NCBI GenBank assembly: GCA_902588835.1
Contig: CACIQQ010000001.1
Span: 1-64,000, forward strand
From: an uncultured Pelagibacteraceae bacterium
GTDB taxonomy: Bacteria > Pseudomonadota > Alphaproteobacteria > Pelagibacterales > Pelagibacteraceae
DNA length: 64,000 nt
Reading direction: 5' to 3'
Shown: positions 6,047 to 11,368 of the stretch, one piece after another
Layout of the letters: the number at the start of each line of letters is the position of its first letter
Position numbering within the stretch: the first letter of the stretch is position 1
The notes under the pieces: generated by a model
Told to the model about the DNA's origin: nothing
Database searches by the model: none
The model's input: the letters and a program-made list of their open reading frames with translations, nothing else
Position numbers and translations under genes: made by a program

Positions 6047-6397
6047 TCAATTTCTACCGAAAATTTGGTATATTTGAATAGCAATTTCACTTTCTAATGG
6101 AAATGACAACATTCCCATTACTGAATAGCCCAATAGGTAAGGCATTAAGTAAAATCTAAACATGTAAAAGAACCAAGCAACATAAAGTGGCACCAAAGGC
6201 TTGATGATGAAGGATGGAGTTATAAATGCAAATATCCTGATAAATGGATCTGTCATTTTCACAAATATCCTCATAAAGAAGAAATTAGAGTCTTCTCTTT
6301 GAAATATGTTCATCGCAACCCTTCCAATTAATGTCCACATAATTACGCCCATGACGTAATCGATTAAATAAACCATTGGATGAAAGTTTGCGTACAT
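6047..6397 (-). CDS. Small YggT-like membrane protein
   Basis: 116 residues with three or so hydrophobic segments. The central stretch MTDPFIRIFAFITPSFIIKPLVPLYVAWF resembles the YggT pattern (a D-P-F-x-R amphipathic turn followed by a hydrophobic span) and parallels the better YggT match at 16352. The function is not known. It lies just beyond the symporter terminator on the same strand, so it is probably transcribed separately, and 43 bases before rpe. The assignment rests on pattern only. Confidence 0.5.
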   Translation of the reverse strand: MYANFHPMVYLIDYVMGVIMWTLIGRVAMNIFQREDSNFFFMRIFVKMTDPFIRIFAFITPSFIIKPLVPLYVAWFFYMFRFYLMPYLLGYSVMGMLSFPLESEIAIQIYQIFGRN

Positions 6398-6448: not shown

Positions 6449-8269
6449 TTAGTGTTGTTTACCAAGTATCGCTTTACCGCTAGGTATTCGTACTTCGTCA
6501 ACCATTCTTTGAGTAGCAGCATCAGGTGCTTTAGTCATCAAGCTGACTACCACCATTAATACTAAGCTTACTAAAGATCCAACAATACCAAATGTTAATT
6601 GAGTAACTCCCCAGAATCCAGGGTAACCACTTCTTACAGCAATTAGATATGCTGAACCAGCGATTAAACCACCTAACATTCCAGCGACTGCTCCTTGAGC
6701 ATTAGCTCTCTTCCACCATACTCCTAGTACAAGTGGGAAGAACAATCCTGACATCGCAAAGTCAAAAGCCCAGATGACTGAACCTAAGATACCTTGAATC
6801 TCAAGAGCTGCAATTGTTGCTCCTGCAAAACCAATTAATACAAGTAATACCCTTGCAACGATAAGTCTTTTCGCTGTCTCAGCTTTAGGGTTAATCATCT
6901 TGTAGTAAATATCATGCGATAGAGCATTTGATATCGCTAACACTAATCCGTCAGCTGTTGACATGGCAGCAGCCATACCTCCAGCAGCAACTAGACCAGA
7001 AATTACATAAGGTAATCCTGCTATCTCTGGAGTAGCCAATACAACGGCTTTACCACCCATGAAAAACTCGTTTAATTCAAGTGTTCCATTTCCGTTAAAG
7101 TCGCTTACAAACATTAAGTTTGCTTGGTTCCAGTTTTGATACCAGTCAATCGCTTGAACTTCAGAGATTGATTTACCAATAATTCCAGTAGCTAAGTTTG
7201 GATCCATTAGTGATAGTTTAGACAAAGTCGCTAACATTGGTGCTGAAGAATATAGTAGGAATATAAAGAATAGTGACCAACCTACTGATCTTCTTGCAGC
7301 TTTCACACTTGGAGTTGTGAAATATCTCATCATAACGTGTGGTAATGAAGCTGTTCCAGCCATCATACAAACCGCTAATGAAATAAATTTCCAAGGTGTT
7401 GTGTTAACTTCTGCGTGCGCTTTAGTTATACCAGATAGTCCTTTTGGTACCTGTTTTAGGTCAGCTGCAGAGTTTTTAACTTCACCAAGACCGAACTGAG
7501 CTTCTAACTCAGCGATTCTTGCTACTTCATCTGCTAACATTAGGTGTGGAAATACTCCTGCACCCATTTTGTTACTGATCCAGAAAACTGGTAACAAGTA
7601 TGCTATAATCAGTACGATGTACTGAGCAACTTGCGTCCAAGTAACTGCTCTCATTCCACCAAGCATTGAACACATCAATATACTTGCAAGACCAACGTAC
7701 ACAGCAATCTCGAAAGGAATATCAAGTGCAACTGATGCAATTGTTCCTGTCGCATTTATCTGTGCAGTCACGTATGTGAATGATGCAACTGTTAAGACTA
7801 TTACCGCAGATAGTCTAGCCATGTTTCCACCATATCTAGTTCCGATAAAATCTGGAACTGTGTAGCAACCAAACTTTCTCAAGTACGGTGCTAATAGCGA
7901 AGCAACTAATACGTATCCACCCGTCCAACCAACAAGCAATGCCATATAGCCGTAACCTTTAAAGTAAATTCCTCCAGCCATCGCAACGAATGAAGCACCA
8001 GACATCCAGTCTGCTGCAGTAGCCATTCCGTTGAATACTGTTGGAACCTGTCTTCCAGCTACGTAATATGCATCTGTTTGCATTGTACGTGATAGGTAAC
8101 CAATTAACGCATAAATTAAAACTGTGAACGCAACAAAGAAAATACCAATTAACTTCGCAGACATTCCAGCTTGTTCAGCAATCGCCATTAAGATTATGAA
8201 AACAATAAACCCGCCGGTATATGTTCCATAAATCTTAGGAAGATTGTCTATAAATTTACCTTTAAACAT
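6449..8269 (-). CDS. Sodium/solute symporter large subunit, VC_2705 type (acetate/monocarboxylate-like)
   Basis: 606 residues of the SSS family with about 13 hydrophobic segments. The N-terminal part has YYVAGRQVPTVFNGMATAADWMSGASF, and TPEIAGLPYVISGLVAAGGMAAAMSTADG marks the core conserved in this subtype. It probably moves a small organic anion with sodium; the acs gene close by suggests acetate, but the substrate is not proven. Residues 390-401 form an exact EF-hand loop, DFNGNGTLELNE, in a predicted extramembrane loop. It starts one base inside the stop of the small-subunit gene (TAATG). Base composition is less AT-rich than neighbours, consistent with high expression. Confidence 0.9.
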   Translation of the reverse strand: MFKGKFIDNLPKIYGTYTGGFIVFIILMAIAEQAGMSAKLIGIFFVAFTVLIYALIGYLSRTMQTDAYYVAGRQVPTVFNGMATAADWMSGASFVAMAGGIYFKGYGYMALLVGWTGGYVLVASLLAPYLRKFGCYTVPDFIGTRYGGNMARLSAVIVLTVASFTYVTAQINATGTIASVALDIPFEIAVYVGLASILMCSMLGGMRAVTWTQVAQYIVLIIAYLLPVFWISNKMGAGVFPHLMLADEVARIAELEAQFGLGEVKNSAADLKQVPKGLSGITKAHAEVNTTPWKFISLAVCMMAGTASLPHVMMRYFTTPSVKAARRSVGWSLFFIFLLYSSAPMLATLSKLSLMDPNLATGIIGKSISEVQAIDWYQNWNQANLMFVSDFNGNGTLELNEFFMGGKAVVLATPEIAGLPYVISGLVAAGGMAAAMSTADGLVLAISNALSHDIYYKMINPKAETAKRLIVARVLLVLIGFAGATIAALEIQGILGSVIWAFDFAMSGLFFPLVLGVWWKRANAQGAVAGMLGGLIAGSAYLIAVRSGYPGFWGVTQLTFGIVGSLVSLVLMVVVSLMTKAPDAATQRMVDEVRIPSGKAILGKQH

Positions 8270-8532
8270 TAGTCATCCTCTCTTTCAGTGTAGCCGAACT
8301 CTTCGTCAATTTTTTCTTGTCTATTCGCAAACCAGAAAATAAGTATTACGAAAATTCCAAGAGAACCTTGACATGTCATGTAATAAGACAACGGATATCC
8401 AAGTGGTCTTATTGATGACGCTTCCATCTCGGCGCCGAAGAAAAAGATGCCAATAGAGAAAACAAACCAGATTGCTAATGTTACAAATAGCAACATTCTA
8501 GTTTTTTCCCAGTGTTGTTGTTGTTTTGACAT
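8269..8532 (-). CDS. Sodium/solute symporter small subunit (DUF4212)
   Basis: 87 residues from the ATG at 8532 (MSKQQQHWEKT). I chose this over the track start at 8583 because a strong GGGAGGG ribosome-binding sequence lies eight bases upstream and the family begins with this W-rich motif. Two membrane segments are visible (LLFVTLAIWFVFSIGIFFFG and MTCQGSLGIFVILIFWF), with a conserved PLGYPLSYYMTCQG between them. The product is the small partner of the VC_2705-type symporter and is translationally coupled to it. Confidence 0.92.
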   Translation of the reverse strand: MSKQQQHWEKTRMLLFVTLAIWFVFSIGIFFFGAEMEASSIRPLGYPLSYYMTCQGSLGIFVILIFWFANRQEKIDEEFGYTEREDD

Positions 8533-8601
8533 TTTTTTTCCCTCCCTATAGGTTAAAAGACGAAACATTACCCAAAATGACATAGATTGGAACCCCTAAA
8601 A

Positions 8602-8630: not shown

Positions 8631-8654
8631 TTAGACAACTTGAAGTGGAAAATA

Positions 8655-9278
8655 ATGCTTAAATACAAATTCAATCTCAAAGATATAAGTCTTGCTGATT
8701 TCAAACTCTATTTAGGAGCAATGTTCAAAGCAGTGCTTCCTAAGAGCAAACTGAGGAATTTGGACGACTTAAAAAAATTTATTCAACAGAAATCAGCTTG
8801 GGTAACACAAGTTACCCTTTATAGTTATTTAAAAACCAGAATGGGAACTAGATACGTTTTGCATTTTGATAATGAAGTTTTTTTATCTTCAATAAATAAA
8901 GCAAAATGGAATATTTATTATGTAGCCCTTCAAGACCTTACTTTCTACAGCTTCTCATATTTGAACTATTTCTTTAAATATGAAGATACAGCAAAATCAA
9001 AAATGATTTACGAAGAGATTTTGCATGATGAACTTAAGAATGGAATGCCAGATGATATAATTGCAAAAGGAAAAGCAACTTTTGACAAAAGATTAGAAGA
9101 AATTGATTGGAAAAAGTATTTTAGCTCTTTGCCATTCAACAAAAGTGCTTTGGCTTTATATGAGTGGGCACCAATTGCTGAAGAACTAAAAACTTTGGAT
9201 AGAAAAATTGTCTTAAACTCTATGATACTGAAGTGGGATAATATCAAAGAAGAATTCGAAAAGAGAATTAATTTTTAA
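8655..9278 (+). CDS. Conserved-looking protein of unknown function
   Basis: 207 residues from the ATG at 8655 ([10 protein letters not shown]); the track start is a TTG five codons earlier. I do not recognise the family. The protein is soluble-looking with many aromatic residues ([29 protein letters not shown]) and no signal peptide or membrane segment. It is divergent from the symporter operon and overlaps the end of acs by four bases on the opposite strand. Codon use and size look like a real gene. Its position between an acetate-type symporter and acs might hint at a link, but nothing in the residues shows one. Confidence 0.7.
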
Positions 9279-11368
9279 ATATTTTTTCTTTCGTCAACAA
9301 GACTTTTGACAACACTAGGATCCGCTAATGTTGTAGTATCACCAAGTTGATCATGTTCATTAGCTGCAATCTTTCGTAAAATTCTTCTCATTATTTTTCC
9401 AGATCTAGTTTTTGGAAGCCCTGGTGAAAAATGAATTATATCAGGTGTTGCTATTGGTCCAATTTGTTTTCTAACCCAAAGCTTCAAATCTCTTTCCAAA
9501 TCACCATCAGGATTTTCACCCACATTAAGGGTCACGTAACAGTACAAACCGTTTCCTTTAATGTCATGAGGATAACCCACAACTGCAGCTTCCGCTACTT
9601 TTGGATGAGCAACGAAAGCACTTTCTATTTCTGCAGTACCAAGGTTATGACCCGATACAATAATAACATCGTCAACTCTTCCTGTTATCCAATAATATCC
9701 GTCTTTATCTCTTCTACACCCATCACCAGTAAAATATTTTCCATCGAATTGAGAAAAATATGTTTCAATAAACCTATTGTGATCTCCATAAACAGTTCTC
9801 ATTTGTCCAGGCCATGATTGAGCTATACAAAGTCTTCCTTGAGCTTCTCCTTTTAAAACGTTTCCGTCTTTATCAACTATTACAGGTTTAATTCCGTAGA
9901 AAGGTTTAGTTGCTGAACCAGGTTTTAAATCTATAGCTCCAGTTTGTGGACTAATTAATATACCACCTGTTTCTGTTTGCCACCAAGTATCAACAATTGG
10001 ACACTTACTATCACCGACAGTTTTGTAATACCATTCCCATGCTTCTGGATTAATTGGTTCTCCTACAGTTCCTAAAAGTTTTAAGCTTTTTCTAGAAGTT
10101 TTTTTAACAGGTCCTTCACCTTCTCTCATTAAAGCTCTAATTGCAGTTGGAGCAGTATAAAAAATGTTTACTTTATACTTATCAACTATTTGCCACCATC
10201 TCGAGCTGTCAGGATAAGTTGGAATACCTTCAAACATTATTGTTGTTGCTCCGTTAGCTAAAGGCCCGTAAATAATATAGCTGTGCCCTGTAATCCATCC
10301 AATGTCAGCTGTACACCAATAAATATCTTTGTGCTTATAATTGAATATGTATTGATGTGTCATAGAGGCATAAACCATGTAACCACCTGTAGTATGAAGC
10401 ACACCTTTAGGCTTACCTGTTGAACCAGATGTGTATAAAATAAAAAGAGGATCTTCCGCATTCATCTCCTCAGGTTCACACACAGCAGGGACATTTTTTG
10501 TTATGTCATGGTACCAGACATCTCTTTCTTCATTCCAATTAATTCTATTTCCCGTTCTTTTAACAACAACGCATTTTTTTACGTTCGTACAACTTAACAA
10601 GGCTTCATCTGTAATTTCTTTCAAAGGAATTGTTTTTCCACCCCTGACCCCCTCATCAGCAGTCACAACATAATCTGAGTTACAGTCATTAATTCTACCC
10701 GCGATACTGTCAGGTGAAAATCCTCCAAAAATTATTGAGTGTATTGCTCCAATTCTTGCACATGCTAGCATTGTGTATGCAAGTTCTGGTATCATAGTTA
10801 AATAAATCGTTACTCTGTCACCTTTTTTAACACCAATATTTTTAAGTCCGTTCGCAATTTTAGATACTTCTGAGTGGAGTTGTTTGAAGCTTATTTTTTT
10901 TTGAACCTTTGGATCATCCCCAACCCAAATTATTGCAGTCTTATCTTTATTGTTTTTAAGATGTCTATCTATACAGTTTACTGAAGCATTAAGAGTCCCA
11001 TCATAGAACCATTTAATGTGAACGTCAGATTTACTATACTTTACATCCTTAATCTTAGAATATGGTTTAATCCAACTTATTCTCTTTCCTTCTTTTCTCC
11101 AAAAAGAATCATTTTCTTTTAAAGATTGATTGTATTTTTTTTCATATAGGTTTTTTGTAACTAAAGCTTTTTTAATCCATTCAGATTTAGTTTTATAAAT
11201 TTTTTCATTATCTTCTATTTTTTTATTGATAGTTGATTTTGTTTTTCTCTTTCTAGATTTTAAGGACTTTCTTTTTTTAGGTTTTCTAAAAACCTTTTTC
11301 CTCTTTTTTGCGGATTTTCTTTTTCTTATCTTTTTATTTTTTTTCTTTTTTTTTGATTTTTTTGGCAT
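9275..11368 (-). CDS. acs: Acetyl-CoA synthetase with a lysine-rich N-terminal extension
   Basis: 697 residues, about 45 more than typical bacterial Acs. Core motifs are complete: [25 protein letters not shown] (AMP-binding P-loop), [30 protein letters not shown], and the C-terminal [11 protein letters not shown] with the lysine that is acetylated in regulated enzymes. It converts acetate, ATP and CoA to acetyl-CoA. The extra N-terminus is extraordinary: about 30 of the first 46 residues are Lys or Arg. No alternative ATG occurs until well inside the enzyme, so the tail appears genuine unless a non-ATG start is used. It lies two bases after the EVE gene and converges on an unknown gene. Confidence 0.95.

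Follow-up and report, generated by a model that had tools for sequence, protein, structure and literature searches.

A putative calcium loop in the outer-gate lid of a SAR11 VC_2705-family sodium/solute symporter, and a cysteine pair in place of its ligands in some relatives

Calcium loops of the Dx[DN]xDG type have been surveyed previously, showing that the elements that flank them can be strands or helices, and no transporter is mentioned among the loops of that survey (Rigden et al. 2011, PMC3123361). In transporters of the SSS family, extracellular loop 4 (EL4) is known as a mobile lid of the outer gate; calcium is not mentioned in the review of this family. The dopamine transporter, which has the LeuT fold, carries a Zn2+ site at EL4 (ligands H375 and E396), and binding of the metal alters transport. 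In type IV pilins and pseudopilins, one region is held by a staple that differs between homologues, either a disulfide or a calcium site (PMC6497953). Among papers available without subscription, a literature search returned nothing relevant on calcium in the loop of the VC_2705 subfamily, or on DUF4212.

The DNA analysed here (the window) is a stretch of 64,000 nucleotides from an uncultured Pelagibacteraceae bacterium. It contains a symporter gene and two neighbours related to it by family or by recurrent vicinity:

6449..8269, minus strand: VC_2705-family sodium/solute symporter, 606 aa (TIGR03648, SSF Pfam and likeness of the structure model)
8269..8583, minus strand: DUF4212/TIGR03647 small subunit of the symporter (Pfam 83 bits; NCBIfam 81 bits, cut-off 26.05)
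9275..11368, minus strand: acetate--CoA ligase, acs (PRK00174, 1065 bits)

The symporter matched the TIGR03648 profile (VC_2705 family sodium/solute symporter) over residues 43-596 with 663.2 bits (cut-off 320.75), and the SSF Pfam profile with 171 bits. Its AlphaFold model (mean pLDDT 93.9, pTM 0.93) had SGLT2, SiaT, CHT1 and NIS as top Foldseek matches (probability 1.00, query TM 0.62-0.72), and vSGLT was also matched; the modelled fold is of the LeuT type, as in known members of the SSS family (TC 2.A.21). The nearest relatives, with 100-90% identity, all belong to Pelagibacterales (SAR11). The symporter was found in 122 of 399 sampled Pseudomonadota genomes and in 91 of 147 Pelagibacterales. 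Its distribution within the order is not universal: four near-complete genomes from the genus of the window (G058, G112, G120 and G125) and all the listed genomes of g7, a genus of the same order, lacked it at E<=1e-80.

The DUF4212 gene is the next one upstream and adjoins the symporter gene in all of the 80 nearest Pelagibacterales loci, as well as in most other loci. The acs gene is located farther on, and is near the symporter in 79 of those 80 loci. The acs-DUF4212-symporter arrangement was also found in relatives from Paracoccus, Limimaricola and Haloferax, and the recurrence of this neighbourhood in SAR11 and in these relatives makes short-chain organic acids the likely substrate class. 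The first ~50 residues of the acetate--CoA ligase are nearly all Lys, Arg or Ser; this start seems to be real but variable in length, since the enzymes of relatives L075 and L079 have shorter Lys-rich starts. Two further genes accompany the symporter. A YggT-like membrane protein of 116 aa is encoded 3' of it (6047-6397, minus strand; Pfam YGGT 19 bits, below the cut-off of 27), and was kept beside it in 80/80 of the nearest SAR11 loci, 30/30 order-sample loci and 10/30 class-sample loci; it is possible that this protein is a third component of the symporter. An ORF of 212 aa with a TTG start (8640-9278, plus strand), on the strand opposite to its neighbours, is beside the symporter in 79 of 80 SAR11 loci and had no family match in domain-profile searches.

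The preliminary description of this DNA had proposed an EF-hand loop at residues 390-401 of the symporter, between membrane segments. The elements that bear on this proposal are the following:

7067..7102, minus strand: putative Ca2+ loop of the Dx[DN]xDG type, DFNGNGTLELNE, residues 390-401 (sequence, pattern and shuffles, conservation)
7106..7114, minus strand: beta-strand before the loop, residues 386-388 (DSSP on the AlphaFold model, local pLDDT ~95)
7058..7066, minus strand: beta-strand after the loop, residues 402-404 (DSSP on the AlphaFold model)
7130..7144, minus strand: short helix of EL4 carrying W376 and W380, two residues that hardly vary in the family (model, family alignment)
7010..7231, minus strand: EL4, residues 347-420, between core TM7 and core TM8 (model helices, profile match, charges)
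6956..6961, minus strand: S437-T438, Na2-site position at the start of core TM8 (invariant in 119 sequences, aligned with the vSGLT serine pair)

The loop sequence was found exactly at the position given for it, and DFNGNGTLELNEF, which is the loop plus F402, fits the complete 13-position PROSITE-style EF-hand pattern, including positions 1, 3, 5, 6, 8 and 12. The predicted ligand positions are D390, N392, N394, the backbone at 396 and E401. This was the only match to the pattern among the 67 ORFs of the window, while 0.075 matches were expected from residue shuffling over the whole window and 0.0004 from shuffling of the symporter alone. A chance motif is ruled out by these shuffles and by the conservation described below, which is the strongest argument against chance. 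The Pfam EF-hand models gave a different picture: in the isolated EL4 the EF-hand_1 score was 13.0 bits, far under the cut-off of 25.4, and the whole symporter had no EF-hand match at E<=1. Moreover, the loop is flanked in the model by beta-strands and not by helices, which excludes an EF-hand in the strict sense; the model indicates a putative Dx[DN]xDG calcium loop within a beta-hairpin. The ligand pattern of the proposed EF-hand was thus borne out, but neither its helix-loop-helix nor a Pfam score above cut-off was.

The position of the loop between membrane segments was confirmed by the model helices that bound EL4 (H342-355 and H421-459). Core TM8 of vSGLT and SGLT1 aligns with the residues that directly follow the loop, LPYVISGLVAAGGMAAAMSTADG, and a profile match (LPyvvsGl...AAlSTadG) corresponds to the same helix, which identifies the loop as EL4. 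The cytoplasmic loops on either side carry positive charge, with four Lys/Arg and no acidic residues before core TM7 and four Lys/Arg after core TM8, and EL4 itself has three Lys/Arg and seven Asp/Glu. By homology and charge distribution, the calcium-type loop is placed on the periplasmic side, and a cytoplasmic loop is ruled out. The invariant S437-T438 pair at the Na2 position is consistent with Na+-coupled transport by this symporter.

Around 270 family members were gathered and grouped into 147 clusters at 90% identity. A tree made without the EL4 columns showed two strong clades, with the window's protein in clade A. W376, W380, D390, G395 and E401 are nearly invariant amid an otherwise variable region, and the features of a Dx[DN]xDG loop (D1, N/D3, D/N5, G6 and a later acidic ligand) were all found. 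D1, N3, D/N5, G6 and E12 are kept in nearly all of the 128 calcium-type clusters, which come from Pseudomonadota. In the 54 calcium-type clusters of clade A the loop is contiguous, with 12 residues, and has D1 in 52/54, N/S at position 3 in 53/54, D/N at position 5 in 52/54, G6 in 52/54 and E12 in 54/54. The 74 clusters of clade B contain an insert of variable length between loop positions 8 and 12, with D1, N3, D5 and G6 present in 74/74 each. Despite these varied inserts, all 74 clusters have a Glu on the N-terminal side of the fixed A-x-P with which core TM8 opens, at a distance of 11 or 12 residues, and we read it as the equivalent of E12 because this spacing is fixed. Clade B members L239, L229 and L237 have very long Ala-rich inserts at this point of the loop, with both ends of the site kept.

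Among 137 Pelagibacterales-like sequences, D390, G395, N400 and E401 are invariant as amino acids and their codons vary synonymously, indicating purifying selection on the loop. N392 is present in 136/137, and D is the sole alternative to N at position 394. The acidic residues of the loop are strongly conserved. In SAR11, position 5 is mostly N, which predicts a weak affinity for Ca2+. The loop is also common in many Pseudomonadota outside SAR11, including named plasmid-borne homologues from soil and sea. A feature specific to SAR11 or to seawater is therefore ruled out, and the suggestion that the loop is an adaptation of this transporter to seawater has to be abandoned.

Clade A also includes 17 clusters, 16 of them full-length, in which the ligand set is broken; D1 was lost in all of them and the other ligands variably. 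All 16 full-length clusters have exactly two EL4 cysteines, 12-15 residues apart, within an insert at the loop start, and EL4 cysteines were found in 0/128 of the calcium-type clusters. In the model of a cysteine-type homologue (L173, pLDDT 93.3) the hairpin strands are kept (residues 373-375 and 404-406), and the loop that joins them holds Cys376 and Cys388. A disulfide appears to hold this hairpin in several alphaproteobacterial lineages, which would agree with the periplasmic location. Among plasmid sequences, no cysteine-type homologue from a named host was found. All the relatives with an intact flap and no calcium ligands have the cysteine pair, suggesting that the EL4 flap needs one kind of staple or the other. 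Since some cysteine variants lost D1 only and kept N3, D5 and E12, their Ca2+ site may be weakened rather than gone. The Haloferax members have a short EL4 with neither loop nor cysteines and serve as a natural control, in which the hairpin is missing altogether; the staple is thus not essential to the family fold, and a family-wide necessity is ruled out.

Forcing the cysteine types into one clade had a cost of 130 log units in the AU test (p-AU 0.00028), which rules out a single origin or loss event. The best tree contains seven changes between the calcium and cysteine types, and its well-supported branches force at least two. A test on independent pairs had two well-supported pairs to work with, or seven if the best tree is taken, and such numbers do not reach significance by themselves. 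The AU test and the well-supported branches suggest that the exchange probably happened more than once, and horizontal transfer or recombination of EL4 could have contributed to the distribution of the cysteine type.

In our view Ca2+ probably staples the EL4 gate hairpin in a structural role, one in which ion and disulfide would be interchangeable. The periplasmic hairpin of bacterial VC_2705-family symporters would be closed by the Dx[DN]xDG loop, with a Ca2+ ion held by D390, N392, N394, the T396 carbonyl and a bidentate E401. This ion would tie together two stretches, one following the tryptophan helix (W376/W380) and one running into core TM8. Stapled in this way EL4, which as a lid shuts the outer gate above the Na+ and substrate sites, would keep its shape. 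That the loop is single and unpaired counts against this reading, as does the weak affinity predicted from N at position 5 in SAR11. Its extension to the outer-gate lid of the whole symporter subfamily, with an interchangeable staple that is mostly Ca2+, elsewhere a disulfide, and repeatedly exchanged, is more tentative, and we regard it as plausible without leaning towards it.

Ca2+ could instead have a regulatory role: by binding to EL4 and leaving it, the ion would gate the outer entrance and make transport respond to external Ca2+. EL4 moves as a lid in SSS transporters, and a gating effect is possible because Zn2+ at EL4 of the dopamine transporter, which has the same fold, can affect cycling. 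However, Ca2+ in the open ocean is ~10 mM and practically constant, so that the site would always be filled; the predominance of N at position 5 in SAR11 makes a weaker loop; and replacement by a cysteine pair indicates a permanent staple. For these reasons regulatory gating is unlikely in SAR11, and structural stapling is favoured over sensing because the cysteine pair can replace the ligands. The preliminary description had considered that calcium might stabilise or gate the transporter: a Ca2+ site that stabilises it or affects gating is the best reading of the periplasmic location and the conserved acids, but regulatory gating is made unlikely in this organism by the cysteine swap and the constant seawater Ca2+.

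Slightly less probable again is a metal-free tight turn (an Asx turn plus Gly) in the DxNxDG segment, kept for hairpin geometry or for contact with DUF4212. In favour of such a turn, the model folds confidently without metal, and the gene of the small subunit almost always adjoins that of the symporter. Nevertheless, position 5 is almost only D/N and position 3 only N/S, and E12 persists also where it lies tens of extra residues away from the turn; these restricted substitutions and the retention of a distant E12 point to a metal-ligand signature and not to a turn. Binding of another cation in vivo, Mg2+ or Na+, is very improbable: N at position 5 reduces the charge and both ions are more plentiful than Ca2+ in seawater, but in EF-type loops a bidentate glutamate at position 12 selects Ca2+ over Mg2+, and E12 is the most conserved residue.

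With Ca2+ as the probable staple, the loop is of a known kind in a new context, adding membrane transporters to the settings of Dx[DN]xDG calcium loops, and the cysteine swap is the more original point, in which Ca2+ may have been exchanged for a disulfide repeatedly in nature. VC_2705 symporters are widespread and, as suggested by their place beside acetate--CoA ligase, probably carry short-chain organic acids in SAR11, the most abundant bacteria of the ocean. A Ca2+ or disulfide staple on the lid would offer a simple handle on outer-gate closure by EL4 in SSS/SLC5 transporters, among them human SGLT and NIS.

The symporter loop resembles the described Dx[DN]xDG loops (PMC3123361) in its D1-x-N3-x-D/N5-G6 sequence with a distal acid, and in its flanking strands, which are allowed in that group. 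It differs in belonging to a secondary transporter, where it is part of the gate lid, and in that within the family it may be split by long inserts before E12 or have a cysteine pair in its place. With EF-hands it shares the chemistry of the 12-residue loop and the full PROSITE-type pattern, but has no helix-loop-helix, no paired second hand and a Pfam score under the cut-off. The fold, the Na2-type core TM8 and the EL4 outer-gate lid are those of SSS/SLC5 symporters (PutP, SiaT, vSGLT, ActP and SGLT), for which no EL4 Ca2+ loop has been described. As in the dopamine transporter, a metal bound at EL4 could influence the conformational cycle, although that site binds Zn2+ through His, Glu and Asp ligands partly outside EL4, is inhibitory and is unrelated in sequence. 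Type IV pilins and pseudopilins are unrelated in fold and function, and are a precedent for the swap only, in which a disulfide or a calcium ion serves as the staple (PMC6497953).
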